48,794 nt of DNA from Catenulispora sp. (GTDB lineage: Bacteria > Actinomycetota > Actinomycetes > Streptomycetales > Catenulisporaceae), in the NCBI GenBank assembly GCA_013362315.1, contig JABFWL010000198.1:1-48794 (forward strand), given 5' to 3'. Every line of letters starts with the position of its first letter. Position 1 is the stretch's first letter. The notes under the pieces are model-generated. The model had not been told where the DNA came from, did not search any database, and saw nothing but the letters and a program-made list of their open reading frames with translations. The position numbers and the translations under genes were made by a program. Below, piece by piece: positions 8,859 through 45,104 of this stretch.

Positions 8859-10046
8859 CTAGCCCGGTTCCACCGCCAGCCGGTACCCGCGTTTCGTCAC
8901 CGTCGCCACCACGTCGGCGTGTTCGCCGAGCGAGGACCGCAGCCGGGCGACCGTCGCCTCCACCGCGTGCTCGTCCCGGCGCATCCCGGTCCACACCCGG
9001 CGCAGCAGCTCGGCGCGGCTCAGCACGCGGCCGGGCTGGCGGGCCAGCTCACGCAGCACCCCGGCGGGCAGCGGCGGCAGCGGGACCGCGCGGCCGTCGA
9101 TCAGGACGGCGTTGCCCTGCACCACGATGTCGCGGCCGGGGGTGTTCAGGCGGCGCCGCACCCGCGGCGGCAGCTCCTGGGTGATCACCCGGGCCAGCGA
9201 GCCCAGGCGGCCGCGGTCCGGCCAGACCGAGGTGATGCCGTGCGGTTCCAGCGGCGCGGCGCAGACCGGCCCGATGCACGCCGCCAGCACGTCGGCCTGC
9301 ATCGCGTCCACGACCCGCGGCAGGCTGCCGCTGTTCTCCGCCGCCGCCAGGAACGCCGCGGCGCCCGGCGCCGAGGTGAAGGCGACCGCGTGCACCTGGC
9401 GCCGCACCACCGCCTCGATCAGCCGGCCGACCGCGGCGGTGTCCTGCGGCTGTCCCCACTGGTAGACCGGCACCGGGATGACGTCGGCGCCGGCGCCGCG
9501 CAGCGCGTCCAGGAACGCGGTGTCGGCGCTGCCGTGCAGCTGCACCGCGATCCGGGTGCCGGCCAGGTCTCGGCTCAGCAGCCATTCGAGCAGTTCGGTC
9601 GAGGACTCCGACGGCGGCGAATAGGTTTCACGCATCCCGCACTGCCGGATCGCCCCGGTCGCCTTCGGCCCGCGGGCGGCCAGCGTGGCCCCGGCCAGCG
9701 CCCCGCTGAGCGCGTCGCCGAGCCCCCAGCCCTCCGCGGTGGAGATCCACGCCCGCCAGCCGATCCCGGTGGTCGCGACCGCGTAGTCCAGCGGCCCGCG
9801 CAGGCACTCCTCGGTGGCCGCTCTCAGCACCCTGTCATCGTGTAACGGGATGATGCGCATGGTGGGGGCGGTCACGACCTCGGCGCCGCGCCGCTTCAGC
9901 ATCGCCGCCAGCTCGTCCCGGCGCCGGTCGGAGGTGATCGCCACGACGCAGCCGATCAGGGGTTCGGCCGGCGTGCCGGGGCCGGAGGCGGCTGCCGGTG
10001 CGGCCGGTGAACCCGGTGTGTCCGGTTCAGTTGTCGTGGTGTTCAT
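8859..10046 (-). CDS. nnaR: NnaR-type regulator: HemD-like domain fused to an OmpR-type DNA-binding domain
   Basis: A 395-residue protein. After a short Pro/Ala-rich lead comes a uroporphyrinogen-III-synthase-like (HemD) domain (about residues 30-275), then a winged-helix Trans_reg_C domain (about 295-390, with VLSRAELLRRVWTGMRRDEHAVEATVARLRSSLG). This architecture matches NnaR of Streptomyces coelicolor and Mycobacterium smegmatis, a co-activator of nitrate/nitrite assimilation genes. It diverges from nasA, which supports that role. The HemD part may sense rather than synthesise. A GTG at 10055 is an alternative start; a GGAG on the minus strand lies 3 nt from it and 12 nt from the chosen ATG. 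Confidence 0.87.
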   Translation of the reverse strand: MNTTTTEPDTPGSPAAPAAASGPGTPAEPLIGCVVAITSDRRRDELAAMLKRRGAEVVTAPTMRIIPLHDDRVLRAATEECLRGPLDYAVATTGIGWRAWISTAEGWGLGDALSGALAGATLAARGPKATGAIRQCGMRETYSPPSESSTELLEWLLSRDLAGTRIAVQLHGSADTAFLDALRGAGADVIPVPVYQWGQPQDTAAVGRLIEAVVRRQVHAVAFTSAPGAAAFLAAAENSGSLPRVVDAMQADVLAACIGPVCAAPLEPHGITSVWPDRGRLGSLARVITQELPPRVRRRLNTPGRDIVVQGNAVLIDGRAVPLPPLPAGVLRELARQPGRVLSRAELLRRVWTGMRRDEHAVEATVARLRSSLGEHADVVATVTKRGYRLAVEPG

Positions 10047-10306
10047 GAGCCGCACTATCTCCGGGCCCGATTACAGTGGTGTTGCCGACCGGCTACGGCG
10101 CGGTAAGACGGTTCGACCCTCGAGAAGGCTCTGGATAACCTCCGAAGAACTCTGACGGTGCCACCCCCTGCTTCCGGCACCGGAACGGTCGCCGGGTCCG
10201 CAATCGGACTCTCGTCATTTCCGAAGACAAGCAGTGTGAGATCTCCGTCGCGTGCGAGTAACGGCGGCGCGGTGTGCCGGAAACGCGAGGTGGCGACTGT
10301 GGGGGC
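10047..10306. promoter_or_regulatory. Divergent nnaR-nasA control region
   Basis: This 260-bp region separates two divergent nitrogen genes. It holds a perfect inverted repeat TTCCGG-CA-CCGGAA at 10172-10185 and two direct copies of TCCGAAGA (10141 and about 10220). They are candidates for NnaR or GlnR sites. I could not fit a full GlnR box (gTnAc-n6-GaAAc pairs), so no operator is assigned. Confidence 0.4.
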
Positions 10307-12526
10307 ATGGACGCCTCAGCCGCCGTGACCCGCACCCACTGTCCGTATTGCGCACTGCAGTGCGGGATGGAGCTGCGTTCTGAAACCGGTTCGAATTCCG
10401 GCGGTGCGGTGCCGTTGCGGGCCGACGGCTGGGACGCCTTCCCGGTCAACAAGGGCGCGCTGTGCCAGAAGGGCGCCACGGCGACCGAATTGCTGAACCC
10501 CGCCGCCCGGCTCACGACGCCGCTGCTGCGCCGCAGCCGCGACGCGGAGCTCGAAACGGCGACATGGGACGAGGCCCTGGACTTCGCCGCTTCCCGGATC
10601 TGCGACCTGGCCGCCGCCCATGGCCGGGACGCCGTCGGCATCTTCGGCGGCGGCGGACTCACCCACGAGAAGGCGTACTCGCTCGGCAAGTTCGCCCGCG
10701 TGGTGTTGCAGACTCCGCACATCGACTACAACGGCCGGTTCTGCATGAGTGCCGCCGCGGCCGCCTCGCAGCGAGCCTTCGGCGTGGACCGCGGCCTGCC
10801 GTTCCCGCTCGCCGACGTGGCGCACACCGACGTCATCCTGCTGGTCGGCTCCAACCTCGCCGACACCATGCCGCCCGCGCTGCGGTACTTCACGGCGCAG
10901 CGGGAGAACGGCGGCCGGCTGATCGTCGTCGATCCGCGCCGCACCCGGACCGCCGAACAGGCCGACCTGCACCTGCAGCCGGTGCCGGGCACCGACGCGG
11001 CGCTCGCGGCCGGACTCCTGCACGTCCTGATCGCCGAACACCTCGTGGACGAGGAGTTCATCGCGGCCCGCACCAGCGGCTTCGAGGAAGTGCGCGCCGA
11101 GGTGCTGCGGTGGTGGCCGGAGCGGGTGGAGGCGGTGTGCGGGGTGCCGGCGCCGGATGTGCGCGCGGCGGCGCGGATGTTCGCCGGAGCTGACAACGAA
11201 GGCGGAGCTGGAAACGGAGCCGGAGCTAAAAACGGGGCTGGAGCTAAAAACGGGGCCGGAGCTCGAAACGGCGCCGGAGTTCACAACGGGGCGGGAATCA
11301 CCGCCTCGACCGGCATGGTCCTGACCGCGCGCGGCACCGAGCAGCAAGCCGACGGCGCCGACGCCGTGAACGCCTGGATCAACCTGGCGCTCGCCGCCGG
11401 CAAGGCCGGCCGGCCGTACTGCGGCTACGGCGCCATCACCGGCCAGGGCAACGGCCAGGGCGGCCGGGAACACGGCCAGAAGGCCGATCAGCTGCCCGGT
11501 TACCGCAAGATCACCGACCCGGCGGCGCGCGACCACGTGGCGAAGGTCTGGGGCGTGCCCGCCGACTCGCTGCCCGGACCGGGCCGCCCGGCGGTGGAGC
11601 TGCTGGCCGCGTGCGGCAGCGATATCAAAGCCCTGCTGGTCGCCGGATCGAACCCGGTGGTGTCCGCGCCGGACGCCTCGTTCGTGTCGGCGCGGCTCGC
11701 GGCGCTGGACTTCCTGGCCGTCTGCGACGTCGTGCTGTCGGAGACCGCGGCCCTGGCGGACGTCGTCTTCCCGGTCACCCAGTGGGCTGAGGAGAGCGGC
11801 ACGATGACGAACCTGGAGGGGCGCGTGCTGCTGCGGCGGCAGGCGATCGCGCCGCCGGACGGCGTGCGCTCGGACCTGGACGTGCTCGGGGGACTGGCCG
11901 AGCGGCTGGGCCGGCCGGGCTTCCTCACCTCGCCGCCCGAGGTGTTCGCCGAGTTGGCGCGGGCTTCGGCCGGAGGTGTCGCCGACTATTCAGGGCTCTC
12001 CTATGAACGGCTCGACGCCAGCTCCGAGGGAGCCGGCCTGCATTGGCCGTGTCCCGCACCGGAGCATCCCGGTACGCCGCGTATGTTCCTCGAAGCGTTC
12101 GGTACGCCGGACGGCCGGGCGCGGTTCGTCGCCGTCGGGCACGAGCCGGCGGTCGAGGAGCCGTCCGCGGACTTCCCCTACCGGCTGACCACCGGACGCG
12201 TGCTGGCGCAGTACCAGTCGGGGGCGCAGACGCGGCGGGTGCGGAGCCTCAACTCCGCCGAGCCGGGGGCGTTCGTCCAGCTGCATCCGGACCTGGCGGC
12301 GGCGGTCGGGGTCTCGGAGGGCGACGCGGTGCGGGTCACGAGCCGCCGGGGAAGCGCGGTGGCGCCCGCCCGCATCAACGACCTGATCCGGCCGGACACG
12401 GTGTTCATGCCGTTCCACTGGGCCGGCGCGGGACGCGCGAACTCGGTGACACGGCGGACGACGGATCCGGTGTCGGGCATGCCGGCGTTCAAGACGGCGG
12501 CGGTGCGGGTGGAGGTGGAGCGGTGA
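10307..12526 (+). CDS. nasA: Assimilatory nitrate reductase, molybdopterin catalytic subunit
   Basis: A 739-residue Mo-bisMGD oxidoreductase that should reduce nitrate to nitrite in the cytoplasm. The 4Fe-4S ligands are Cys12, Cys15, Cys19 and Cys53 (HCPYCALQCGM...GALCQKG). The likely Mo ligand is Cys146 in the NasA/NarB-type motif YNGRFCMSA. A C-terminal molydopterin-dinucleotide-binding domain starts at about residue 625 (YRLTTGRVLAQYQSG). I chose ATG 10307, close to the cysteine motif, though its ribosome binding site is weak. Residues 294-329 are an in-frame 18-bp minisatellite inserted in a loop. The stop overlaps the start of the FAD oxidoreductase by 4 nt. A formate dehydrogenase is excluded by the neighbours and the Mo-Cys motif. 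Confidence 0.9.
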   Translation: MDASAAVTRTHCPYCALQCGMELRSETGSNSGGAVPLRADGWDAFPVNKGALCQKGATATELLNPAARLTTPLLRRSRDAELETATWDEALDFAASRICDLAAAHGRDAVGIFGGGGLTHEKAYSLGKFARVVLQTPHIDYNGRFCMSAAAAASQRAFGVDRGLPFPLADVAHTDVILLVGSNLADTMPPALRYFTAQRENGGRLIVVDPRRTRTAEQADLHLQPVPGTDAALAAGLLHVLIAEHLVDEEFIAARTSGFEEVRAEVLRWWPERVEAVCGVPAPDVRAAARMFAGADNEGGAGNGAGAKNGAGAKNGAGARNGAGVHNGAGITASTGMVLTARGTEQQADGADAVNAWINLALAAGKAGRPYCGYGAITGQGNGQGGREHGQKADQLPGYRKITDPAARDHVAKVWGVPADSLPGPGRPAVELLAACGSDIKALLVAGSNPVVSAPDASFVSARLAALDFLAVCDVVLSETAALADVVFPVTQWAEESGTMTNLEGRVLLRRQAIAPPDGVRSDLDVLGGLAERLGRPGFLTSPPEVFAELARASAGGVADYSGLSYERLDASSEGAGLHWPCPAPEHPGTPRMFLEAFGTPDGRARFVAVGHEPAVEEPSADFPYRLTTGRVLAQYQSGAQTRRVRSLNSAEPGAFVQLHPDLAAAVGVSEGDAVRVTSRRGSAVAPARINDLIRPDTVFMPFHWAGAGRANSVTRRTTDPVSGMPAFKTAAVRVEVER
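11186..11293 (+). repeat. 18-bp coding minisatellite in nasA (GGAGCTAAAAACGGGGCC type)
   Basis: Six abutting 18-bp units begin at 11186, 11204, 11222, 11240, 11258 and 11276. The third and fourth differ only at the last base. They encode GADNEG, GAGNGA, GAKNGA, GAKNGA, GARNGA and GVHNGA. Codons such as GCT, AAA and GGA are unusual against the G/C-ending codons on either side. The same word occurs at 12535-12606 and 21600-21785 in unrelated genes. Confidence 0.95.
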
Positions 12527-13761
12527 CAGGCATCGGTACGCAAAACGGAGCTCTGAACGGTACGCAAAACGGAGTTGAGAACGGAGCTCGAAACGGAGCT
12601 GAAGACGGGGGACAGCGAATAGTCGTCGCCGGCGCGGGCCTGGCCGGCCACGAAGTCGTGCGGCGGCTGCTGGCCTCACCGGACTTCGACGGCAGCATCA
12701 TCTGGCACACCGCCGAACCCGGGCGTCCCTACAACCGGGTCCTGCTGACCGACTTGATCGCCGGGCGCCACACGCCCGACGCGATCAGCCTCCCGGCCCT
12801 GTCCGATCCGCGGCTGACCACGCGGCGCAGGCCCCTGAACTCCATCGCCGAGGCCGAGTTCGACTTCCTGGTGCTGGCGACCGGCGCCGACCCGGTGATC
12901 CCGCCGGTCCGCGGCAACGCCGTCCCCCTGCGCACCCTCAACGACGCGCGCACCATCCTGCGCGCCCTCGAAGACGGTGCCCGGCGGGTGGCCGTGGTCG
13001 GCGGCGGACCGCTCGGTGTGGAGACCGCCTGTGCGCTGGCGCGCCGCGGCGTGCGCACCGACCTGGTCCACCGCGGACCGCATCTGCTGTCCCGCTGGCT
13101 CGACGCCGAATCGGCCGCCCTGCTCACCGACTCCCTGAGCACCGCCGGTATCAACGTGCGCTGTGACACCGATGTTTCCGCCGCCTCCGGTACCTGGCCC
13201 GGTGCCGATCTGGTGATCCTCGCGTGCGGCAGCCGCCCGCGCGTGGCGTTGGCGCGCGCGGCCGGTCTGCCGCTCGGCCGCGGGATCCTCGTCGACGGCG
13301 ACGGCCGCTCGGTCGGGGACCCGCGGGTGTTCGCGATCGGCGACTGCGCGCAGGGCGGCGGGGCGGTCGGCGCCTTCGCGGCGCTGGAAGATGCGCGGCG
13401 TGCCGCGGACGCAATAATCCGGCAATCAATCCGGCGCTCGCCGAAGGAGGCGATCGCGGCGCCGTTCCGTCATGCGGCGCTGCGGCTGCGCACCTATGAC
13501 ATCCCCGGCGCCGACGTGGCCGTTCTCGGCCCGCCACTGTCCGATCCCACCATCCAGCTCACCGACCAGCGCCGCCGCACCCGCAAGGCGCTCACCCTCG
13601 ACGGGGACGCGCCGGTCGCCGCGGCGCTGGTCGGCGACGTCCGGGCGGCCGCGGCGCTGGCGCGGGCGATCGGCGATCCGGCCACCCCGGTGCCCGGTGT
13701 CCCGGTCGCGCTTCTCACATCGGCGGTCGGCGGCGGTGCGGCCGGTTTCGATCGCGTGTAA
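12523..13761 (+). CDS. FAD-dependent NAD(P)H oxidoreductase, probable electron donor subunit for NasA
   Basis: A 412-residue pyridine-nucleotide-disulfide-oxidoreductase-fold protein resembling the N-terminal half of NirB. The FAD motif is VVAGAGLAGHEVVRRL (from about residue 33), the NAD motif VAVVGGGPLGVETACALARRG, and the second FAD motif VFAIGDCAQGGG. No Fe-S cysteine cluster follows, unlike NirB. The GTG at 12523 overlaps the nasA stop and has a GGAGG-type site upstream, so the two are translationally coupled. I infer that it passes electrons from NAD(P)H to NasA. Residues 5-28 are a 12-bp tandem repeat related to the one in nasA. Confidence 0.82.
   Translation: MTGIGTQNGALNGTQNGVENGARNGAEDGGQRIVVAGAGLAGHEVVRRLLASPDFDGSIIWHTAEPGRPYNRVLLTDLIAGRHTPDAISLPALSDPRLTTRRRPLNSIAEAEFDFLVLATGADPVIPPVRGNAVPLRTLNDARTILRALEDGARRVAVVGGGPLGVETACALARRGVRTDLVHRGPHLLSRWLDAESAALLTDSLSTAGINVRCDTDVSAASGTWPGADLVILACGSRPRVALARAAGLPLGRGILVDGDGRSVGDPRVFAIGDCAQGGGAVGAFAALEDARRAADAIIRQSIRRSPKEAIAAPFRHAALRLRTYDIPGADVAVLGPPLSDPTIQLTDQRRRTRKALTLDGDAPVAAALVGDVRAAAALARAIGDPATPVPGVPVALLTSAVGGGAAGFDRV
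12535..12606 (+). repeat. 12-bp coding minisatellite at the N-terminus of the FAD oxidoreductase
   Basis: Six abutting 12-bp units: GGTACGCAAAAC, GGAGCTCTGAAC, GGTACGCAAAAC again, GGAGTTGAGAAC, GGAGCTCGAAAC and GGAGCTGAAGAC. They encode GTQN, GALN, GTQN, GVEN, GARN and GAED. The unit is the first 12 bp of the 18-bp nasA unit, about 1.3 kb away. Confidence 0.95.
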
Positions 13762-13807
13762 CACGGCTGAAGCGGACGGGTAATCGCGGCGCGGCACCGT
13801 AAGGGGT

Positions 13808-16411
13808 ATGAGCAGCCCCTCGCAGCGTAGAGTCCTCGTCGTCGGACACGGGATGGTCGCCCACCGTTTCGTGTCCAGTCTCCTCGAGCACGCCCAGGAC
13901 GATGGGCGGCCGGCGCCGGCTGTGACGGTCTTCGGGGCCGAGGACCGGCCGGCCTACGACCGGGTCCGGCTTTCGTCGTGGTTCGACGACCGGGATCCGG
14001 CCGGCCTGCACCTCGACCCGTATCCGGACGGCGCGGTGGAGGTGGTCGCACCGGCCACCGTGGCCTCGGTGGACCGCGAGGCGCAGACCGTCACCACCGC
14101 CGACGGCGCCGTGCGCAGCTACGACACGCTGGTGCTGGCCACCGGCAGCCGGCCGTTCGTGCCGCCGGTCGAGCAGCACCAGGCCCCGGGCTGTTTCGTC
14201 TACCGCACCCTGGACGACGTCGAGGCGATCGCGGCCTACGCCGACGGCCGCGCCACCGGTGTGGTCGTCGGCGGCGGACTGCTCGGCCTGGAGGCGGCCA
14301 AGGCGCTGACCAGCCTGGGCCTGCAGACCTCGGTCGTGGAGTTCGCACCGCGCCTGATGCCGCTGCAGGTGGACGACGGCGGCGCGGCCGCCCTCCAGGC
14401 CCGCATCGCAGAGCTCGGAGTCAACCTGCTCACCGGCACGCGGCTGGACCGGGTGCTCGTGGACGACGCCGGGGTCGCCTGCGCCGTCCAGGCGATCCGC
14501 GGCGAGGAGGCCGTGACCGTCGAGGCCGACATCGTGGTGTTCGCCGCCGGCGTCCGCCCCGAGGACAGCCTGGCCCGCGCCGCCGGCCTGGACGTCGGCG
14601 AGCGCGGCGGCATCGTCGTCGACAAGCTGTGCCGCACCTCCGACGAGCGGATCTACGCGATCGGCGAGTGCGCGCTGGCCGCCGACGGCCGCGTCTACGG
14701 TCTGGTCGCGCCCGGATATCAGATGGCTGAGGCCGCCGCCGCGCACATCGCCGCCGAGAGCGAGGGTCGGGCCTTCACCGGCGCCGACACCTCCACCAAG
14801 CTCAAGCTGCTCGGCGTGGAGGTGGCCAGCTTCGGCGACGCGTTCGGCGCGGCCGAGGGCAGCATGGCCGCCACCTACAGCGACTCCCGCCGCCGCGTCT
14901 ACCGCAAGCTCACGATCGCTCCGGACGGCCGGCTGCTCGGCGGCATCCTGGTCGGCGACGCCGAGGACTACGGCACCCTGCGCGCCCTGGTCGGCGAGCA
15001 GCCGCCGGCCGCGCCGGAGCAGCTGCTGCTGCCGGCCGGCGCCGCCGGAGCGGTGAGCATCGGCCCCGCCGGGCTGCCGGACGCCGCCGTCCTGTGCTCG
15101 TGCCACAACGTCACCAAGGGCGCGATCTGCACCGCGATCCACGACCTCGCCGAGAAGAGCGACGCCGAGGTCACGCCCAAGCAGGTCGGCCTGTGCACGA
15201 AGGCCGGCACCGGCTGCGGCTCCTGCGTCACCTCGATCAAGAGCCTGATCAAGTCCAGCGGCTCCGGCGGCAGCTCAGGGCTCTGCGAGCACTTCACGCA
15301 GTCCCGTTCCGAGCTCTACACCATCATCCGACGGGACCGCATCACCACCTTCGCCGAACTGCTCGCCAAGCACGGCGCCGCGGCGCAGGCGCAGGGCCAG
15401 CGCGCGGTGAACGACGGCTGCGACATCTGCAAGCCCGCCGTCGGCTCCATCCTGGCCTCGCTCGGCGGCCTGCTCGCCGAGGCCGCCGGCACCGGCCGCA
15501 AGCCGCACGTGCTGGACGGCGGCCAGGCGGCGCTGCAGGACACCAACGACCACGTGCTGGCCAACCTCCAGCGCAACGGCTCGTACTCGGTCGTGCCGCG
15601 CATCCCCGGCGGCGAGATCACGCCGGACAAGCTGATCGTCATCGGCGAGGTGGCGCGCGACTTCGGGCTCTACACGAAGATCACCGGCGGTCAGCGCATC
15701 GACCTGTTCGGGGCGCAGATGGCGGACCTGCCGAAGATCTGGCGACGGCTGGTGGACGCCGGGTTCGAGTCCGGACACGCCTACGGCAAGGCGCTGCGCA
15801 CCGTGAAGTCCTGCGTCGGCTCCACCTGGTGCCGCTACGGCGTGCAGGACTCGGTGAAGATGGCCATCGACCTGGAGCTGCGCTACCGGGGGCTGCGGGC
15901 CCCGCACAAGATCAAGATGGCGGTGTCCGGCTGCGCCCGGGAGTGCGCCGAGGCTCAGTCCAAGGACGTCGGCGTGATCGCCACCGAGCGCGGCTGGAAC
16001 CTGTACGTCGGCGGCAACGGCGGCGCCCGGCCCCGGCACGCCGACCTGCTGGCCACCGACCTCGACGACGACGCGCTGATCCGCACCATCGACCGGTTCC
16101 TGGCCCTGTACATCGCCGAGGCCGACCGCCTGGAGCGGACCGCGACCTGGGTCGAGCGTTACGAGGGCGGCCTGGACCGGCTGCGCAGCGTGCTGATCGA
16201 CGACGCCGAGGACCGCGGCGCGGACCTGGAGGCGCTGATCGCCGCGCACATCGACGCCTACACCGACGAATGGCGCGCGGTGCTCGACGACCCGGTGAAG
16301 CTGGCCCGCTTCGCCACGTTCGTCAACGCCCCGGACGCCCCGGACCCGACCGTCGCGTTCGTGCCCGAACGCGGCCAGATCAAGCCGCTGCTCACGCTGG
16401 GGAGGCGCTGA
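13808..16411 (+). CDS. nirB: Assimilatory nitrite reductase [NAD(P)H], large subunit
   Basis: An 867-residue NirB that reduces nitrite to ammonium. Domains in order: FAD/NAD(P)H oxidoreductase (residues 1-about 410), a BFD-like [2Fe-2S] domain with Cys430 and Cys432 (CSCHNVTKG) plus the later CGSC pair, a nitrite/sulfite reductase ferredoxin-like domain, and the siroheme-4Fe4S domain with Cys669, Cys675 (SCVGSTWCRYG) and the SGCARECAE pair at about 710. Length is normal. It starts 46 nt after the FAD oxidoreductase gene with a weak AAGGGG-type site, and its stop overlaps the nirD start by one base. Confidence 0.96.
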   Translation: MSSPSQRRVLVVGHGMVAHRFVSSLLEHAQDDGRPAPAVTVFGAEDRPAYDRVRLSSWFDDRDPAGLHLDPYPDGAVEVVAPATVASVDREAQTVTTADGAVRSYDTLVLATGSRPFVPPVEQHQAPGCFVYRTLDDVEAIAAYADGRATGVVVGGGLLGLEAAKALTSLGLQTSVVEFAPRLMPLQVDDGGAAALQARIAELGVNLLTGTRLDRVLVDDAGVACAVQAIRGEEAVTVEADIVVFAAGVRPEDSLARAAGLDVGERGGIVVDKLCRTSDERIYAIGECALAADGRVYGLVAPGYQMAEAAAAHIAAESEGRAFTGADTSTKLKLLGVEVASFGDAFGAAEGSMAATYSDSRRRVYRKLTIAPDGRLLGGILVGDAEDYGTLRALVGEQPPAAPEQLLLPAGAAGAVSIGPAGLPDAAVLCSCHNVTKGAICTAIHDLAEKSDAEVTPKQVGLCTKAGTGCGSCVTSIKSLIKSSGSGGSSGLCEHFTQSRSELYTIIRRDRITTFAELLAKHGAAAQAQGQRAVNDGCDICKPAVGSILASLGGLLAEAAGTGRKPHVLDGGQAALQDTNDHVLANLQRNGSYSVVPRIPGGEITPDKLIVIGEVARDFGLYTKITGGQRIDLFGAQMADLPKIWRRLVDAGFESGHAYGKALRTVKSCVGSTWCRYGVQDSVKMAIDLELRYRGLRAPHKIKMAVSGCARECAEAQSKDVGVIATERGWNLYVGGNGGARPRHADLLATDLDDDALIRTIDRFLALYIAEADRLERTATWVERYEGGLDRLRSVLIDDAEDRGADLEALIAAHIDAYTDEWRAVLDDPVKLARFATFVNAPDAPDPTVAFVPERGQIKPLLTLGRR

Positions 16412-16836
16412 TGGAGACCCTGGACATGCCGGAGACTTCGGAGATCACGGAGGCTTTGTGGACCCCGGTCTGCAAGTACACGGAGCTCGAACCGGGACGC
16501 GGGGTCGCCGCGCTGGTCGGCGGTGCGCCGGTGGCCTTGTTCCGGCTGGGTGACGGATCCCTGCACGCGGTCGGCAACCTGGACCCGTTCAGCGGCGCCT
16601 CGGTGATCTCCCGGGGCATCACCGGGATGCGCGCCGACGGCACCGCGACCGTCGCCTCGCCGATGTACAAAGATGTGTTCGACCTGGCCACCGGCGTCGC
16701 GCTGGACGCCCCGGAGGTGCGCCTGCCGGTCTACGCGGTGCGCCGGCACCGGGGCACGGTCTGGGTCGGCCCGGATGTCACATCCGTTTCCGACAAGGAT
16801 GCGGAACTCCTGACGATGGCGACTTCGGCAGTGTGA
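16411..16836 (+). CDS. nirD: Nitrite reductase small subunit
   Basis: A 141-residue NirD, a Rieske-fold partner of NirB. It lacks the Cys/His ligands of true Rieske proteins, as NirD proteins do. The start ATG shares its A with the nirB stop (TGATG), and GGAGG lies 7 nt upstream. The core reads from WTPVCKYTELEPGRGVAALV to VYAVRRHRGTVWVGP. Confidence 0.93.
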   Translation: METLDMPETSEITEALWTPVCKYTELEPGRGVAALVGGAPVALFRLGDGSLHAVGNLDPFSGASVISRGITGMRADGTATVASPMYKDVFDLATGVALDAPEVRLPVYAVRRHRGTVWVGPDVTSVSDKDAELLTMATSAV

Positions 16837-16920
16837 ACAGGTGAAACAGGGCGCTCCTAGATTGCGGTCAAGCTCACCGGAACCGACTGAAACGACTGAA
16901 CCGACCGAAGGAGGCGAGCT

Positions 16921-18270
16921 GTGACCACGATCTCAGCGGGAGGCGTCACGACGCCCGCGATGGCCGACCGCGCCCTGTTGGACACCTGGAACCCTGAGAA
17001 CGAGGACCTGTGGGCAGCCGGCGGGCGCCGTATCGCCCGCCGCAACCTGGCGTTCTCGATCCTCTCCGAGCACATCGGATTCTCGGTGTGGTCGCTGTGG
17101 TCGGTGCTGGTGCTGTTCCTCGGCCCGGCCTACCACATCGACCCCGCCGGGAAGTTCGTCCTCACCTCGCTGCCGGCGGCGGTGGGCTCGGTGCTGCGCC
17201 TGCCGTACAGCTTCGCCGTGACCCGCTTCGGCGGCCGGAACTGGACGGTGTTCAGCGCCCTGATCCTGCTGGTGCCCTGCGGCCTGGCGGCGTTCCTGGT
17301 CAAGCCGGGCGTGTCCTACTCGACGCTGCTGACGCTGGCCGCCATCACCGGTGTCGGCGGCGGCAACTTCGCCTCGTCGATGACCAACATCAACGCGTTC
17401 TATCCCGACCGCCTCAAGGGCTGGGCGCTGGGCCTGAACGCCGGCGGCGGCAACATCGGCGTGGCCACCGTGCAACTGGTCGGCCTGGCCGTGCTGGCCT
17501 GGAGCGGCAAGGGCCACCCGGGCCTGGTCGCCGGGATCTACCTGCCGCTGATCGTGATCGCGGCGGCCGGCTCGGCGATCTACATGGACAACCTGCCCAA
17601 CCGGACCGCGGAGCGCGGCGCGATCCGCGAGGTCGCCAAGCGCGGCCACACCTGGGTCATCTCCACTCTCTACATCGGCACCTTCGGCTCCTTCATCGGC
17701 TTCGGGTTCGCCTTCGGCCAGGTGCTCCAGGTCCAGTTCAAGCACGACTTCGCAACCCCGATCGACGCCGCCTACCTGACCTTCCTCGGGCCGCTGCTGG
17801 GCTCGCTGTCCCGGCCCGTCGGCGGCTGGCTCGCCGACCGTTACGACGGCGCCCGGGTGTCACTGGTGACCTTCGGGTTCATGGCCGCCGGGGCGGCGAT
17901 GGTGCTCGCTGCCTCGAAGGCCGCCTCGCTGCCGACCTTCGTCACCGGCTTCGTGCTGCTGTTCGTCTTCAGCGGGGTCGGCAACGGCTCGGTCTACAAG
18001 ATGATCCCGGTCCTGTTCTCCGCCGAGGCGGAGGCGAAGGCCCGGCGCCTGAGCGGCGCGCTGATCGGCCTGGCCGGCGCGGTCGGGGCGTTCGGCGGCG
18101 TGCTGGTCAACATGGCCTTCCGCCAGTCGTTCCTGTCGACGAAGAGCGGCGACTCGGCCTACATCGGGTTCATCGTGTTCTACGTGTTGTGCGGCGCGCT
18201 CACCTGGGCGGTGTACCTGCGGCGCCGGACCCAGACCCAGACCCCAGCCCAGGCCCAGGCCCAGGCCTAG
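16921..18270 (+). CDS. narK: Nitrate/nitrite transporter, NarK family
   Basis: A 449-residue MFS protein with about twelve membrane segments. The nitrate-porter signatures are present: GGGNFASSMTNINAFYP and GLNAGGGNIGVATVQL, and a second one around FSGVGNGSVYKMIP. The GTG start at 16921 has a perfect AAGGAGG site 6 nt upstream (16908-16914). It follows nirD after 84 bp that contain three 9-bp CGACTGAA-like repeats. The last residues, TQTQTPAQAQAQA, come from 6-bp repeats. It probably supplies nitrate for NasA and may also export nitrite. Confidence 0.94.
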   Translation: MTTISAGGVTTPAMADRALLDTWNPENEDLWAAGGRRIARRNLAFSILSEHIGFSVWSLWSVLVLFLGPAYHIDPAGKFVLTSLPAAVGSVLRLPYSFAVTRFGGRNWTVFSALILLVPCGLAAFLVKPGVSYSTLLTLAAITGVGGGNFASSMTNINAFYPDRLKGWALGLNAGGGNIGVATVQLVGLAVLAWSGKGHPGLVAGIYLPLIVIAAAGSAIYMDNLPNRTAERGAIREVAKRGHTWVISTLYIGTFGSFIGFGFAFGQVLQVQFKHDFATPIDAAYLTFLGPLLGSLSRPVGGWLADRYDGARVSLVTFGFMAAGAAMVLAASKAASLPTFVTGFVLLFVFSGVGNGSVYKMIPVLFSAEAEAKARRLSGALIGLAGAVGAFGGVLVNMAFRQSFLSTKSGDSAYIGFIVFYVLCGALTWAVYLRRRTQTQTPAQAQAQA

Positions 18271-18307
18271 GACAGGCGGAGTAAGACGTTCGGACATCCG
18301 AGCTCAC

Positions 18308-18385
18308 GACCGCCATGCGCGGCGCCCCTGGCGTCGGATCAGGCAACCGCTGATCCGGCGCAGGAAGGCGCCGCGCATGGCGGTC
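18308..18385. terminator. Long nested hairpin between narK and the Lrp gene
   Basis: A perfect 19-bp inverted repeat (18308-18326 with 18367-18385; arms begin GACCGCCATGCG and end GCATGGCGGTC) encloses a second stem (about 18331-18342 with 18349-18360, eleven of twelve positions paired and one G-T). The whole 78 nt could form one extended hairpin. It sits in the convergent gap, so a bidirectional, U-tract-less terminator is the simplest reading. A mobile palindromic element is the alternative. Confidence 0.75.
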
Positions 18386-18420
18386 CAGCGCGTCCGGTCC
18401 CACCAGCACGCCCCTGTCGA

Positions 18421-18927
18421 TCAGGACTCCGGCTCTGCCGCGGCCTCCGGATCGCCGGGCAGCGCCGGCAGGTGATCCGTCTCGTCGAACACCAGTAGCG
18501 TCCGAGTCGAGCGGACTCCCTGCATGCTCTGGATGTGGGTGAAGACCAAGTCCCGCAGCGTCTTGTTGGAGGCGCTGCGGACCAGCAGCAGCACGTCGAA
18601 GTCGCCGCTGACCAGCGCCACGTGCTCGACCCAGGGCAGCGCCGCCAGGGTGTCGCGGACCTGGCGCCAGGAGTTCTGCTCGACCTTCATGGTGATGTAG
18701 GCAGAAGTGCTGAAACCCACGCGTTCGGGGTCCACCTGGATCGTGAAGCGGCGGATCACCCCCTCGTCGAGCAGGCGTTTCACCCGCGTGTAGACGTGGG
18801 CGCGGGAGACGTGGACGGCGGCGGCCAGGTCCCGCATCGACATCCGGCCGTCCTTCTGGAGCAGATGGACGATTCTCCGGTCTGTGTCATCCAGGGTGGA
18901 CGCTTGGCCATTGCCGGTGGTGCTCAT
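18421..18927 (-). CDS. bkdR: Lrp/AsnC-family regulator, probable BkdR
   Basis: A 168-residue Lrp-type regulator with an N-terminal AsnC helix-turn-helix (LDDTDRRIVHLLQKDGRMSMRDLAAAVHVSRAHVYTRV) and a C-terminal RAM-type ligand domain (EHVALVSGDFDVLLLV). I chose ATG 18927; the frame is open upstream to 19206 but that part is antisense to bkdA. It is divergent from the E1/E2 genes, the usual position of BkdR, so I expect it to control branched-chain amino acid catabolism. The tail is Ala/Glu/Pro-rich. Confidence 0.88.
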   Translation of the reverse strand: MSTTGNGQASTLDDTDRRIVHLLQKDGRMSMRDLAAAVHVSRAHVYTRVKRLLDEGVIRRFTIQVDPERVGFSTSAYITMKVEQNSWRQVRDTLAALPWVEHVALVSGDFDVLLLVRSASNKTLRDLVFTHIQSMQGVRSTRTLLVFDETDHLPALPGDPEAAAEPES

Positions 18928-18948
18928 GACGCCAATTGTCTCCGATCT

Positions 18949-18965
18949 TGACCGGTTACTGGTCA
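18949..18965. promoter_or_regulatory. Candidate Lrp-type operator and leader inverted repeat upstream of bkdA
   Basis: TGACCGGTTACTGGTCA is a 17-bp palindrome with seven of eight positions symmetric, in the bkdR-bkdA divergent region, 22 bp from the bkdR start. A second inverted repeat, CGTGTCGGC (18969-18977) with GCCGACACG (19016-19024), encloses 38 nt just upstream of the bkdA ribosome binding site and could form a leader hairpin. The link to BkdR is inferred from position and symmetry only. Confidence 0.5.
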
Positions 18966-19042
18966 CCCCGTGTCGGCCGAACAAAGAATCGGCATTACCA
19001 AGCCACCAAGGCACCGCCGACACGTGAGTCAACGGAGACGAC

Positions 19043-20278
19043 GTGACCGTTCTAGCCACGCCCGACAAGACCGGGTCGGACTTCCCCCTGGGGTTCGCCA
19101 CCATCCTGGATCCCTCGCCGCTCCAGTACCTCGACGAGCACGGCGCCCTGTCCGGCGTCCTGCGCGACGACGCCCCCGAGCTGGCCCCCGAGCGGCTGCT
19201 CGGCACCTACCGGGCGATGGTCGTCGGCCGCCGGTTCGACGTCCAGGCCACCACCATGGTCCGGCAGGGCCGGCTGGCGGTCTACCCCTCGTCCTACGGC
19301 CAGGAGGCGTGCGAGATCGGCGCGATGCTGGCGCTGCGGCCCACCGACTGGTTCTTCCCCACCTACCGCGACTGCGTGTCCATGGTGACCCGCGGCATCG
19401 ACCCGGTGCAGACGCTGACCCTGCTGCGCGGCGACTGGCACTGCGGCTACGACCCGCGGCGCTGGCGCACCGCCCCGCAGTGCACGCCGCTGGCCACCCA
19501 GGCGCCGCACGCCGCAGGGCTGGCGCACGCCGCCCGGCTGGCCGGCGACGACACCGTCGCGCTGGCGTTCTGCGGCGACGGCGGCACCTCCGAGGGCGAC
19601 TTCCACGAGGCGCTGAACTTCGCCGCCGTGTATCAGGCCCCGGCGATCTTCTTCGTGCAGAACAACCAGTACGCGATCTCGGTTCCGCTGGCCAAGCAGA
19701 CGCACGCCGCCGCGCTCGCGCACAAGGCCGTCGGCTACGGCATGGCCGGGGTGCGGGTGGACGGCAACGACGTGATCGCCGTGCAGCACGTGGTCGCCGA
19801 GGCCGCGACGCGCGCCCGGGCCGGCGACGGGCCGACCCTGATCGAGGCTGTTACCTACCGGATGCAGGCGCACACCAACGCCGACGACGCGACCCGCTAC
19901 CGGAACGCGTCAGAGGTCGAATACTGGAAGTCGCGGGATCCGCTGGCGCGGCTGGAGACCTGTCTGAAGGCCTGCGGGCTGCTCACCGACGCGGTGGTGG
20001 CCGAGGCGAATCAGGCGGCTGAGGCGCTGGCCGATGACATGCGTGCCCGGCTCGGCGAGGAGCCGGAAGTGGACCACCGGGACCTGTTCCGGCATGTGTA
20101 CGCCGAGCCGACGCCGCAGTTGCGGGAGCAGGCCGCGGCGCTGCAGGCCGAGCTCGACGCTGATCTTGACGCGGCCGAGCATGACGAGGCTGGGGTTGAG
20201 GCGGCTGGGCGTGGGCTTGATGCATCTGGGGCTGACGGCGCTGCGCTCGGTGCCGTCGAGGCGGAGGCCGGCCGATGA
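19043..20278 (+). CDS. bkdA: Branched-chain 2-oxo acid dehydrogenase E1, alpha subunit
   Basis: A 411-residue thiamine-diphosphate E1 alpha subunit. The ThDP motif runs from Gly178-Asp179-Gly180 to Asn207-Asn208 (GDGGTSEG...VQNNQ). The substrate loop around YRMQAHTNADDATRYR is typical. The GTG start has GGAG 6 nt upstream. The last 40 or so residues (DADLDAAEHDEAGVEAAGRG...) are low-complexity Ala/Asp/Gly and probably disordered. The stop overlaps the E1 beta start (ATGA). Pyruvate dehydrogenase E1 is the alternative; the divergent Lrp gene favours branched-chain substrates. Confidence 0.88.
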   Translation: MTVLATPDKTGSDFPLGFATILDPSPLQYLDEHGALSGVLRDDAPELAPERLLGTYRAMVVGRRFDVQATTMVRQGRLAVYPSSYGQEACEIGAMLALRPTDWFFPTYRDCVSMVTRGIDPVQTLTLLRGDWHCGYDPRRWRTAPQCTPLATQAPHAAGLAHAARLAGDDTVALAFCGDGGTSEGDFHEALNFAAVYQAPAIFFVQNNQYAISVPLAKQTHAAALAHKAVGYGMAGVRVDGNDVIAVQHVVAEAATRARAGDGPTLIEAVTYRMQAHTNADDATRYRNASEVEYWKSRDPLARLETCLKACGLLTDAVVAEANQAAEALADDMRARLGEEPEVDHRDLFRHVYAEPTPQLREQAAALQAELDADLDAAEHDEAGVEAAGRGLDASGADGAALGAVEAEAGR

Positions 20279-21288
20279 CCGCCACCCTGGATTCCGCGCA
20301 CCGCGCGGCGCAGAACGCTGAGATCTCCCTGGCGCAGGCCGTGAACCGGGCGCTGCGCGACGCCATGACCGCCGACGACAAGGTGGTGGTCTTCGGCGAG
20401 GACGTCGGCGTGCTCGGCGGCGTCTTCCGCGTCACCGACGGCCTGACCCGGGACTTCGGCGAGCAGCGCTGCTTCGACACGCCGCTGGCCGAGGCCGGGA
20501 TCATGGGCACCGCGATCGGCATGGCCATGTACGGCTTCCGGCCGGTGGTGGAGATGCAGTTCGACGCCTTCTCCTACCCGGCGTTCGAGCAGATCGCCTC
20601 GCACCTGGCCAAGATGCGCAACCGCACCCGCGGCACGCTGCCGCTGCCGGTCGTGGTGCGGGTGCCCTACGGCGGCGGCATCGGCGGCGTGGAGCACCAC
20701 TCGGACTCCTCTGAGGGCTACTTCGTCTCCACCCCCGGGTTGCACGTGGTGACGCCCGCGACGGTGTCGGACGCCTACACCCTGCTGCGCGCGGCCATCG
20801 AGTCCGACGACCCGGTGATCTTCATGGAGCCCAAGCGGCTCTACTGGTCGAAGGACGTGCTCTCGACGACCGGCCCGGAGATCGGCAGGGCGGTGGTCCG
20901 GCGTCAGGGCTCTGACGCGACGCTGATCGCCTACGGCCCGACGGTCTCCACTGCGCTGGAGACGGCCGAGGCCGCCCGCGACGAGGGCTACGACCTGGAG
21001 GTCGTGGACCTGCGCTCGATCGTGCCGTTCGACGACGAGACGGTGTGCGCCTCGGTGCGCAAGACCGGCCGCGCGGTGGTGATCCACGAGGCCGCCGGCT
21101 TCGGCGGCACCGGCGCGGAGATCGCCGCCCGGGTCTCCGAGCGCTGCTTCCACTGGCTGGAGGCGCCGGTGCGCCGGGTGACCGGCTTCGACATCCCCTA
21201 CCCGCCGCCGAAGCTGGAACGGCACCACCTGCCCTCGGTGGACCGGATCCTGGACGCGGTGGCGTCGCTGCAGTGGGAGGACCGGTGA
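20275..21288 (+). CDS. bkdB: Branched-chain 2-oxo acid dehydrogenase E1, beta subunit
   Basis: A 337-residue transketolase-like E1 beta subunit. Recognisable segments are VFGEDVGVLGGVFRVTDGL, the TPP-contact region FDTPLAEAGIMGTAIGMA and EMQFDAFSYPAFEQI. With the alpha subunit it forms the alpha2beta2 decarboxylase that loads acyl groups on E2. It overlaps bkdA by 4 nt and its stop overlaps the E2 GTG start by 4 nt, so all three are coupled. Confidence 0.93.
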   Translation: MTATLDSAHRAAQNAEISLAQAVNRALRDAMTADDKVVVFGEDVGVLGGVFRVTDGLTRDFGEQRCFDTPLAEAGIMGTAIGMAMYGFRPVVEMQFDAFSYPAFEQIASHLAKMRNRTRGTLPLPVVVRVPYGGGIGGVEHHSDSSEGYFVSTPGLHVVTPATVSDAYTLLRAAIESDDPVIFMEPKRLYWSKDVLSTTGPEIGRAVVRRQGSDATLIAYGPTVSTALETAEAARDEGYDLEVVDLRSIVPFDDETVCASVRKTGRAVVIHEAAGFGGTGAEIAARVSERCFHWLEAPVRRVTGFDIPYPPPKLERHHLPSVDRILDAVASLQWEDR

Positions 21289-22841
21289 GCACCCGCGAGT
21301 TCCGGCTGCCGGACCTCGGCGAGGGGCTGACCGAGGCCGAGATCGTGTCCTGGCACGTGGCGGTCGGCGACCCGGTCGCGGTGGACCAGGTGGTCTGCGA
21401 GGTGGAGACGGCGAAGGCGACCGTCGAGGTGCCGTGTCCGTACGCCGGCGTGGTCGTTGAACTGCACGGGGCCGTCGGCGACGTGGTGGACGTCGGGAAG
21501 CCGCTGATCAGCGTGGGGGCGCGGGCTTCTTCAGATAACGGGCCTCTCCCGCTGGATGCGGCGCCTGAAGAGCCGGCGGATCGGGCGCGACTCGACGCCG
21601 AAGCTGAAAACGGGTCCGAGAACCGAGCCGGAGCTAGAAACGGGGCTGCGAACGGACCCGGACCTGAAGACGGGGCCAAGAGCGGAACCGGAGCTAAAAA
21701 CGGCGTCGAGAGCGGACCCGGAGGTAGAAACGGGGCCGAAAACGGATCTGGTAGCGGAGCTGGAGCTAAGAACGGGGCTGCGAAGCAGACTTCCGGAAAC
21801 GTGCTGGTCGGCTACGGTACGGCGGAGGCCGGGGGCGTTCGCCGGCGGCGCGTCGTGAGCGGGTTCGGCGGGCATGGTGCTCCGCCGCGTGCGCACAGCG
21901 CTCCGGTCGTGCAGAACGCGCCCGCGCCCCGGCCCGCTGAAAGCAAGACCGGTGGGGTGCGGGTCGCCGTGGTGTCGCCGCTGGTGCGGCGGCTGGCGAA
22001 GGAGGGCGGGCTGGATCTGGCGGGCGTGCGCGGCACGGGGCCCGAGGGCCTGATCATGCGCCGGGACGTCGAAGCGGCGCTGTCTGCTCCGGTTCTAGCT
22101 CCCGTTTCTAGTAGCGGAATAAATAGCGGTATTGAGGTGCGGGAACGCGTTCCGTTGAAGGGGCTTCGCAAGGCGGTTGCGGACAAACTGTCTCGATCCC
22201 GGCGGGAGATCCCGGATGCGACGACGTGGGTCGACGTGGACGCCACCGGGCTGACGGAGCTGCGGGAAGCACTGAACCGGGACGCCGCCGAGCGGCGGAT
22301 CAGCCTGCTGGCACTGCTGGCGCGGATCTGTGTGGCCGGGCTGGCGCGCTATCCGGAGCTGAACGCGACGGTGGACGTCGAGCGGCAGGAGATCGTGCGG
22401 TATGCCGAGGTGAACCTCGGCTTCGCCGCGCAGACCGACCGTGGGCTGGTGGTGCCGGTCGTGCATGGCGCGCACCGGATGTCGACCGAGGAGCTGGCGG
22501 CGGAGTTCGAGCGGCTGACGGCGGCGGCGCGCGCCGGGACGCTGGGGGTGGCCGAGCTGACCGGTTCGACGTTCACGCTGAACAACTACGGCGTGTACGG
22601 CGTCGACGGCTCCACGCCGATCCTGAACCACCCCGAGGCGGCGATGCTCGGCGTGGGACGGATCGTGAAGAAGCCGTGGGTGGTGTCCGGGCCGGATGGT
22701 GACGAGCTGGCGATCCGGCGGGTCACGCAGCTGTCGTTCACGTTCGACCACCGGGTCTGCGACGGCGGGGTGGCCGGTGGCTTCCTGCGCTACGTGGCGG
22801 ATCTGGTGGAGGAGCCGGCGCGGCTGCTGCGGGCGCTGTAA
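21285..22841 (+). CDS. bkdC: Dihydrolipoamide acyltransferase E2 with a repeat-built linker
   Basis: A 518-residue E2. One lipoyl domain (residues 1-80) carries the lipoylated Lys44 in VETAKATVE. The peripheral-subunit-binding domain lies at about 230-268 (VSPLVRRLAKEGGLDLAGVRGTGPEG). The catalytic domain follows to the end, with His489 and Asp493 in DHRVCDGG. Bacterial E2 linkers are usually Ala/Pro-rich; here residues 106-167 are an NGA-rich 30-bp repeat array. A short Ser/Gly linker at about residues 269-283 lies over an inverted copy of the same repeat. No E3 gene is present in the window. The GTG start is set by the overlap with bkdB. Confidence 0.93.
   Translation: MSTREFRLPDLGEGLTEAEIVSWHVAVGDPVAVDQVVCEVETAKATVEVPCPYAGVVVELHGAVGDVVDVGKPLISVGARASSDNGPLPLDAAPEEPADRARLDAEAENGSENRAGARNGAANGPGPEDGAKSGTGAKNGVESGPGGRNGAENGSGSGAGAKNGAAKQTSGNVLVGYGTAEAGGVRRRRVVSGFGGHGAPPRAHSAPVVQNAPAPRPAESKTGGVRVAVVSPLVRRLAKEGGLDLAGVRGTGPEGLIMRRDVEAALSAPVLAPVSSSGINSGIEVRERVPLKGLRKAVADKLSRSRREIPDATTWVDVDATGLTELREALNRDAAERRISLLALLARICVAGLARYPELNATVDVERQEIVRYAEVNLGFAAQTDRGLVVPVVHGAHRMSTEELAAEFERLTAAARAGTLGVAELTGSTFTLNNYGVYGVDGSTPILNHPEAAMLGVGRIVKKPWVVSGPDGDELAIRRVTQLSFTFDHRVCDGGVAGGFLRYVADLVEEPARLLRAL
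21600..21785 (+). repeat. 30-bp coding minisatellite in the E2 linker
   Basis: Five abutting 30-bp units begin at 21600, 21630, 21660, 21690 and 21720, followed by a partial unit to about 21785. Each unit is an 18-bp module like that of nasA (GGAGCTAAAAACGGCGTC in the fourth) plus a 12-bp module (GAGAGCGGACCC). At about 22086-22112 an inverted copy occurs: on the minus strand it reads AGAAACGGGAGCTAGAACC. Confidence 0.95.
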
Positions 22842-41398: not shown

Positions 41399-41920
41399 AT
41401 GCGCCGCGCGATTGTCACCGGTACCGCGACCGTCTCGGGTGTCGTGCTGCTGCTCGGGTTGAAGCCGCACGACGACACGCCGAGCGCCAGCGGGCGCACG
41501 CTGTCCATCAGCTCGTCGGATCAGGGTTCCGCGGCGCCGAGCACCCAGAGCACGCCCAGCACGCCCAGCACGCCCAGCACGCCGAACACGCCGAGTTCGC
41601 CGAACACCGGATCGTCGAGCACCGGCACCACGACCACGACGCGCACCAAGACCGTGACCGGCGACGCCGCGGGCACTCGCTACGGACCGGTGCAGGTCGC
41701 CGTCACCTTCGATGGCAAGAAGATCACGAAGATCGACGTGCTGGAGTACCCGACGGAGAGCGGCCGGGACCGGGAGATCAACTCCTACGCCATTCCTCAA
41801 CTGAACCAGGAGGCGATGGCGGCTCAGAGTGCGAACATCGACGGGGTCTCCGGAGCGACCTACACGGCCGAGGGCTACCAGCAGTCCCTGCAAAGCGCGA
41901 TTGACAAGGCGGGGCAATGA
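41399..41920 (+). CDS. Exported FMN-binding domain protein, flavinylation target
   Basis: A 173-residue protein with an N-terminal hydrophobic anchor (IVTGTATVSGVVLLLGL), a Ser/Thr/Pro linker (about 45-85) built from 9-bp AGCACGCCC repeats (about 41540-41590), and an FMN_bind domain. The ApbE target motif is DGVSGAT (about residue 150), in which the Thr would be linked covalently to FMN. There is no lipobox Cys. The ATG has GAAAGG upstream. The 3' end is duplicated (see 41901-41940). Confidence 0.9.
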   Translation: MRRAIVTGTATVSGVVLLLGLKPHDDTPSASGRTLSISSSDQGSAAPSTQSTPSTPSTPSTPNTPSSPNTGSSSTGTTTTTRTKTVTGDAAGTRYGPVQVAVTFDGKKITKIDVLEYPTESGRDREINSYAIPQLNQEAMAAQSANIDGVSGATYTAEGYQQSLQSAIDKAGQ

Positions 41921-44601: not shown

Positions 44602-45104
44602 ACGGACACCTTCAAGGGGCTGAGGTGAACGAGTGGCCCGTCGCGGACCTCGACCCGGTCCGCCGCATGCGGGTCCTGGCCTCGGCGCTGCCCGGCGGCG
44701 GGTTCGCGCAGCTCCGGATCGAGGCGCCGGTCGAGCGGGTCTGGAGCTACGTCGCGGACCTGGACCGCAGCATCCCGGACCTGATCGGCTTCCTGCGCCG
44801 TTTCGAGCTCCGGGACGACGGCACCGCGATCGCCACCGGGCTGCTCGGCAACCGCGGCCGCTTCGAGGTCGATCTGCGCGACGGCTGGTGCGTCATGCAG
44901 GACCGGTTCGTCGTCGGCGGATTCGCCGCGGTCGCCAACGAACGAGCCGGAGCAGACCAGGCCACGATCCTCGCCGCCTGCGCAGCGGTGCGCATCGCCG
45001 GCGTGCGGCGGATCGTCCCCCTGGTCTGCTCCGGCTCGTTCGTTGGCGATCGGACCGTCCTCAAGACACTGCGAAAAGTGCAGCGCCGGGTCGAGGCGCC
45101 GTGA
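44598..45104 (+). CDS. SRPBCC-like protein coupled to the sigma factor
   Basis: A 168-residue protein whose segment APVERVWSYVADLDRSIPDLIGFLRRFEL matches the start of the SRPBCC (polyketide cyclase/Bet v1-like) lipid-binding fold. It overlaps the sigma gene by 4 nt, so co-production is expected; a ligand-sensing partner role is my inference. Residues 112-151 are encoded by a perfect 29-bp inverted repeat and its centre, and the sequence there (ANERAGADQ...LVCSGSFVGD) does not look like the usual SRPBCC C-terminus. The gene may have been altered by the palindrome. No signal peptide is seen. Confidence 0.72.
   Translation: MNGHLQGAEVNEWPVADLDPVRRMRVLASALPGGGFAQLRIEAPVERVWSYVADLDRSIPDLIGFLRRFELRDDGTAIATGLLGNRGRFEVDLRDGWCVMQDRFVVGGFAAVANERAGADQATILAACAAVRIAGVRRIVPLVCSGSFVGDRTVLKTLRKVQRRVEAP
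44932..45049. repeat. Perfect 29-bp inverted repeat with a 60-nt centre, inside a gene
   Basis: Bases 44932-44960 and 45021-45049 are exact reverse complements (arms begin TCGCCAACGAACG and end CGTTCGTTGGCGA). Inside, ACGATCC (44964-44970) pairs with GGATCGT (45010-45016), and after a 2-nt bulge GCCGC pairs with GCGGC. The centre is 60 nt, i.e. 20 codons, and has no stop in the native or in the inverted orientation. Confidence 0.95.

Follow-up and report, generated by a model that had tools for sequence, protein, structure and literature searches.

Dispersed short repeats of bacteria take several forms. The mycobacterial MIRU and MPTR and the cyanobacterial STRR are tandem repeats, intergenic or coding, with unit lengths and settings other than those described below, and we know of no split in unit length between genes and spacers, nor of a series of species dialects, in any of them. 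Rickettsia palindromic elements are 100–150 bp long. In marine Beggiatoaceae, the 7-bp word TAACTGA forms direct repeats that lie mostly just upstream of start codons, and related heptamers are rarely repeated, according to the available part of that report (PMC4679880). Dialects of the DNA uptake sequence in Neisseriaceae reach about 1900 copies in 2.2–2.3 Mb (available part of PMC3630211). Here, we describe a family of short DNA words in Catenulispora sp., first noticed in contig JABFWL010000198.1 of assembly GCA_013362315.1 (48,794 nucleotides; this whole stretch is the window), for which a preliminary description had proposed that tandem arrays in three unrelated genes are built from one DNA word. 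In the lineage of the window's genome, G000 (7.97 Mb, fragmented into 770 contigs, completeness estimate 82%), this family has multiplied on both strands, in the form of isolated words, arrays in tandem and a small number of palindromic pairs. No description of the family was found in the literature searched, which covered Catenulispora tandem and intergenic repeats and similar families in part.

According to the preliminary description, the idea of a family would fail if the word were absent elsewhere in the genome. It is not confined to the window: GGAGCTNNAAACGG has 108 exact copies in G000, and the reversed word has 0. Among the 59 other genomes searched, nine belong to the same genus and contain 16 (G006), 5 (G004) or 0–2 copies (the others), and the 50 from beyond the genus contain 0–2 each. 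The looser pattern GCTVRAAACGG gave 165 matches in G000 (control 6), 47 in G006 (control 1) and 12–25 in the other eight genomes of the genus (controls 4–17). A tree from a 9-kb concatenated alignment places G004 as the sister of G000, with G006 next. Arrays were surveyed in 717 kb of G000, comprising 45 word-bearing contigs or parts of contigs, the window and 15 contigs picked by number only; this sample, mostly picked for word content, contains 100 of the 108 exact copies. A weight matrix trained on the arrays found 385 matches in it, against 84 in the reversed sequence used as control, and the family consensus is (CC)GGAGCTNRAAACGG(G). Neighbouring words are spaced by 12 (65 cases), 13 (52), 24 or 26 (8 each) and 18 or 30 bp (6 each), and the reversed control lacks close spacings. 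We counted 46 clusters of at least two words, about five of which are weak (L062, L067, L077 at 11174, L078 and L082 at 4190). Because the 173 kb picked by number carry one array only (L111), the array density of the word-picked contigs overstates that of the genome. With tandem units of 10–60 bp and one unit sequence common to many unlinked loci above control, this is a minisatellite family. The earlier term 'coding minisatellite' is too narrow, as 20 of the 46 arrays are intergenic and 35 exact copies are isolated.

All three arrays proposed in the window are present, on the forward strand. One, of 18-bp units (6.3 copies; 11183..11296) read as GAxNGA, is located in the gene of a nitrate-reductase-like molybdopterin oxidoreductase (10274..12526, forward strand; Pfam PF00384, PF01568 and PF04879), which also contains an isolated exact word in the same direction (10546..10559), with near-words at the equivalent place in G004 and G006. 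Another, of 12-bp units with a 12/24-bp period (12534..12608) read as GAxNG, occupies the N-terminal tail of a FAD-dependent pyridine nucleotide-disulphide oxidoreductase (12523..13761, forward strand; PF07992), the FAD domain of which begins at residue 32, after the tail. The 30-bp units of the last array (21600..21785) lie in a linker of a 2-oxoacid dehydrogenase E2 acyltransferase (21285..22841, forward strand; PF00198, PF00364 and PF02817), with the lipoyl and E3-binding domains on either side. As had been proposed, these units combine an 18-bp module, in the form seen in the molybdopterin gene, with a 12-bp module. The second linker of the same E2 gene contains a pair of antisense words with 13-bp spacing (22089..22115, reverse strand), which the preliminary description overlooked, and a further isolated exact word was found at 44798..44811 on the reverse strand. 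Overall, the window has 28 matches to the word with at most two mismatches, compared with 3.2 expected from shuffles. A related word reported at the start of paaH was not recovered: positions 22.5–31 kb give only matches with three mismatches, and paaH itself was not located. At 2945–3003, a 24-bp array holds GC-rich variants related to the word (GGAGCCGGAACCGAG type), which may represent its ancestral or decayed form.

What defines the family is its DNA, not the peptide that it encodes. The coding arrays, in genes predicted with a purpose-built codon model, comprise 15 in sense and 11 in antisense, and their peptide readings are GAxN in five, ELxT in seven, antisense SSVS in eight and PVLA in one short pair, the remainder being weak or mixed. 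Since one DNA is read as several peptides on both strands, with codons that are rare in the genome, the likeness resides in the DNA. The shared codons had been called atypical, and in the predicted genes of G000, GGA accounts for 7.4% of Gly, GCT for 4.7% of Ala and AAA for 7.7% of Lys codons; others are rarer still (AGA 1.0% of Arg, CTA 0.8% of Leu, GTT 2.7% of Val and TCT 3.0% of Ser), and the rare array codons range overall from 0.8 to 8%. The central proposal of the preliminary description, that linkers of unrelated proteins harbour a family of words alike at the DNA level, is thus supported by the two strands, the several frames, the rare codons, the unrelated hosts and the near-absence of the word from most relatives.

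Within genes, reading frame decides which copies survive. Of 96 coding spacings, 92 are multiples of three, as are 3 of 63 intergenic ones (Fisher, 6e-35); counted by array, the figures are 24 of 26 and 1 of 20, respectively. The intergenic unit is 13 bp in G000. Two coding arrays deviate: the pair at 22089, and L094, a genuine array that was tallied as coding, yet contains a stop and is probably intergenic. In-gene arrays mostly take stop-free, hydrophilic frames, in linkers and tails. Their hosts include a polyketide synthase, a subtilase, a mannosyltransferase-like protein, ABC transporters, a GGDEF/EAL protein, an SDR, an FtsX permease and an RNase H-phosphatase fusion, in which the array separates the two domains; 3 of the 15 host proteins scanned were without a family.

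Intergenic arrays occupy 1 divergent, 7 convergent and 11 tandem gaps, in a tally that omits two arrays at contig edges, and 13 of the 19 lie downstream of a same-orientation gene. Divergent gaps are under-represented (1/19 vs 47/122, p = 0.0035), and Rfam returned nothing at the arrays in six contigs. In L063, the array takes the place of the stop codon that the preceding gene has in relatives, and it stands at one end of a segment (9326–11793) that is inverted with respect to G003, G004, G005 and G007. In L082 (10650–14170) and L084 (5049–5725), inserted genes of about 3.5 and 0.5 kb are flanked on both sides by same-orientation arrays, and at the second of these sites G006 has two units and no insert. 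In G005, the spacer matching the L082 arrays contains a perfect 15-bp tandem of 6.5 copies (L235:6177–6274). A role of the arrays at rearrangement breakpoints, striking in these three contigs, did not hold against controls: in one set of ten arrays, five were collinear and five broken, and synteny was broken at 10 of 16 intergenic arrays and at 8 of 24 boundaries that lack an array (p = 0.11), a further 7 boundaries having yielded no data. The association is a lead, not a finding.

The word is missing from relatives at most of the orthologous sites examined, and the orthologous linkers and spacers of other species are either short linkers or carry other low-complexity or tandem repeats, often with a sequence of their own; unrelated repeats also occupy equivalent spacers. 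The E2 linker is retained as a location among orthologues, which share an EAxNG-like seed. Where one gene of G000 bears an array at its 3' end, G004 and G006 have a single family unit, and the limited G004 DNA examined contains GC-richer relatives of the word. The preliminary description did not anticipate species dialects. A word of the same shape, GGAGSTAGNACSGG, has 29 copies in G009, 14 in its sister G007, 2 in G000 and 0–1 in the other nine of 12 genomes searched. Its reversed control is common in all 12 genomes (10–30 in each, exceeding the word itself in G007) and hence uninformative, so that the contrast rests on the other species. Several copies in G009 are arrays in spacers or gene ends, and many in G007 are single; in G009, about ten 12-bp units of a word other than that of G000 stand directly after a stop codon. 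This dialect partly encodes PEVx or PELE repeats, and such peptides could explain part of the G009 arrays.

A two-unit pattern matched 32 times in G009 (control 15) and recovered related words in tandem, perfect in G005 and G001 and in one near-perfect case in G003; beyond the genus, its matches were overall not above control and mostly not tandem-like. No shared word was seen in an evenly spaced 400-kb sample of G003, a genome with 13.8 tandem repeats per 100 kb, compared with 14.4 in the unselected contigs of G000. The strict two-unit pattern gave 4 matches in 84,980 genomes, a search that may omit G000, all of them in unrelated bacteria (L152–L155: a metagenome-assembled genome, Lachnospiraceae, Bifidobacterium and Treponema). 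A phage or plasmid origin was also considered and found no support, as the strict two-unit pattern was not found in viral contigs and the E2 array sequence had no match in phage or plasmid collections.

The 35 exact isolated copies comprise 20 sense and 14 antisense in predicted genes, covering five of the six frames, and 1 intergenic. Alignable same-genus sequence was available for 16 of the 59 isolated matches of at least 18 bits, and 14 of these 16 showed no indel in the word, although 2 of the 16 match G004 loci fetched for word content, so that shared words are over-counted. These 14 words are therefore not insertions and, judging from the alignments, appear to have arisen by substitution or inheritance; in L063 at 1525, for example, GGCGCG in G005 is two silent changes apart from GGAGCT. 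Compared with empty sites, then, isolated words do not behave as insertions, and the arrays do lengthen linkers and spacers. The proposal that the repeat is 'copied or re-seeded' is not borne out as such by the indel-free words. Units were compared in phase, cutting intergenic arrays into 13-mers and coding arrays into 12-mers, or as picked by score. In phase, intergenic units differ by 3.66 of 13 positions within an array and 3.59 between arrays (permuted mean 3.61; 14 arrays, 68 units); since units of one array resemble each other no more than they resemble those of other arrays, spacer arrays did not, in the main, grow by private copying of a local seed that had diverged. Coding units differ by 2.91 mismatches within and 3.71 between arrays (17 arrays, 100 units). 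The letters CC stand directly before the first unit in 12 of 19 intergenic arrays, 12 of 25 coding arrays and 18 of 30 single words, some of which are arms of palindromic pairs (background 17%). Palindromic pairs occur at four loci in G000, one of which is matched in G004 by a plain hairpin with a different sequence.

Among described systems, the TAACTGA repeats share with this family one short word in many dispersed direct-repeat sets, restricted to a lineage and with a mechanism that is not known; their sets are mostly intergenic, some falling within unrelated reading frames or at their ends (available part of PMC4679880). The Catenulispora word differs from what is described there in being degenerate and 12/13 bp long, with 1 of 19 arrays in divergent gaps, a split in unit length between genes and spacers and dialects in sister species (PMC4679880, same part), and the arrays of G000 do not lie mostly just upstream of start codons. 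As in the available account of Neisseriaceae uptake sequences, a short word occurs on both strands with no single preferred frame, in inverted pairs and in species dialects (PMC3630211). This likeness is one of sequence pattern: over-representation on both strands without a single frame is present in G000, but hundreds to thousands of copies per few Mb are not, and in contrast to that account, G000 has 108 exact copies with tandem arrays dominant (PMC3630211). Rickettsia palindromic elements and other small in-frame elements are likewise DNA elements found both in unrelated genes of conserved proteins and between genes, as far as the available text describes them (PMC2229807). Those elements act as insertions, whereas the G000 word is 12–14 bp long and its isolated copies show no insertion. 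PARCELs are also tandem coding repeats with DNA-level features, dispersed through genomes; in the part of the report available they are defined by a 25-residue protein motif, whereas the peptide in G000 varies with frame and strand (PMC2996958).

The reading that we favour, at a probability of roughly 45%, is a lineage-specific family of short words that multiplies at the DNA level, is filtered by reading frame and spreads via ectopic copying and tandem growth. New words would arise by short-tract ectopic copying, through template switching at sites already word-like; tandem growth would follow at tolerant sites, and reading frame and protein chemistry would weed out the remaining copies. Each copy might act as a donor, so that the commonest word would feed itself and drift into a species dialect. 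Of the readings considered, ectopic copying with tandem growth best fits the isolated words, the common pool of units and the dialects. Several results weigh against it. No copying event was directly seen, coding arrays display plain local duplication, and units picked by score are somewhat closer within arrays than between them (2.58 vs 3.21 overall; 2.74 vs 3.10 in intergenic arrays). Some isolated words are common to G000 and G004, so these predate the species. Substitutions in isolated words amount to 3.29 per 14 bp, against 4.00 for the reversed-word control (4 cases); clustered substitution was accordingly dropped as proof of conversion. The similar density in the control is expected, as a rare word of any kind is likely to be new in a genome picked for having it. 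The spacer arrays seen in G009 also use a 12-bp unit, so the 13-bp intergenic unit is not general. A burst of spreading after which the copies decayed independently could not be told apart from continued exchange.

It is possible, but clearly less probable, that, in lineages of this genus, a privileged 12–14-bp word spreads itself through the chromosome by a sequence-directed process (conversion from a template, addition of repeats copied from RNA, or an uptake-linked drive), yielding single words and arrays, dialects and, by way of the frame, 12-bp units in genes and 13-bp units between them. We consider it unlikely that the arrays are ordinary minisatellite hot spots, in which the linkers and 3' spacers of this genus grow repeats anyway and one seed was spread by moving genes and inter-array recombination. 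Such hot spots would account for the other tandem repeats that other species often carry at equivalent sites, the similar repeat densities of unselected G000 contigs and G003, the arrays on both sides of the inserted genes in L082 and L084 and the local duplication in coding arrays. They leave unexplained the isolated indel-free words and the common pool of intergenic units; moreover, the even sample of G003 lacks a shared word, and broken synteny at arrays is not above control. Repeat addition at breaks from an RNA template, by a reverse transcriptase or a telomerase-like enzyme, appears very improbable. Intergenic units do act as independent draws from one template, the 13-bp period fits, and in L063, L082 and L084 inserted or inverted segments are bordered by arrays, but the isolated indel-free words do not fit, and old divergent copies would be expected to vary equally.

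A signal word favoured by DNA uptake or recombination, accumulating by biased exchange as Neisseriaceae uptake sequences do, would suit the isolated coding copies on both strands and in several frames, the inverted pairs and the dialects. It is nevertheless improbable, with 108 exact copies in 8 Mb against about 1900 in 2.2–2.3 Mb, and with tandem arrays, the dominant form here, unmentioned in the available text of the uptake study ('tandem' has 0 occurrences; PMC3630211); copy numbers in G007 and G009 are lower still. We assign a similarly low likelihood to a protein-bound site (for a nucleoid protein, a terminator factor or a regulator) maintained by selection. One consensus common to the units of different arrays, the 13 intergenic arrays (of 19) that follow a gene in the same direction and the four palindromic loci speak for binding; about half of the arrays, however, lie in linkers of unrelated genes, the word is absent in relatives at most orthologous sites examined, and, with only 1 of 19 in divergent gaps versus 47 of 122, the arrays are not promoter sites. 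Least probable of all is convergence at the protein level, whereby flexible linkers rich in Gly, Ala, Asn or Glu would have come to use the same codons by chance. The E2 linker kept as a place with its EAxNG-like seed, and the PEVx or PELE repeats encoded by part of the G009 dialect, are in keeping with it, but the three main peptide readings on both strands, the intergenic copies and codons of 0.8–8% frequency are not. Arrays in antisense and between genes rule convergence out for G000, whereas it may apply to part of the G009 dialect.

The family documents, in nature, how a DNA word has invaded the linkers of proteins, with identical letters used in several frames and on both strands and kept only where frame and chemistry permit. 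Should its spread prove to be sequence-directed, actinobacteria would have a genome parasite or marking system of a new kind. Thanks to the paired dialects, the mode of spread can be tested through the comparison of strains.

The window contains further minisatellites with unrelated units, at 192–297 (25 bp), 37966–38050 (18 bp), 41535–41607 (9 bp) and 43735–43839 (15/30 bp). Elsewhere in G000, one surveyed contig starts inside the 5' end of a 16S rRNA gene (L090:1–59). A dispersed repeat of about 175 bp has at least 20 copies in G000 (84–96% identity), many of them at contig ends, such as L084:1–184, and copies with 80–85% identity are present in G002, G004 and G008.

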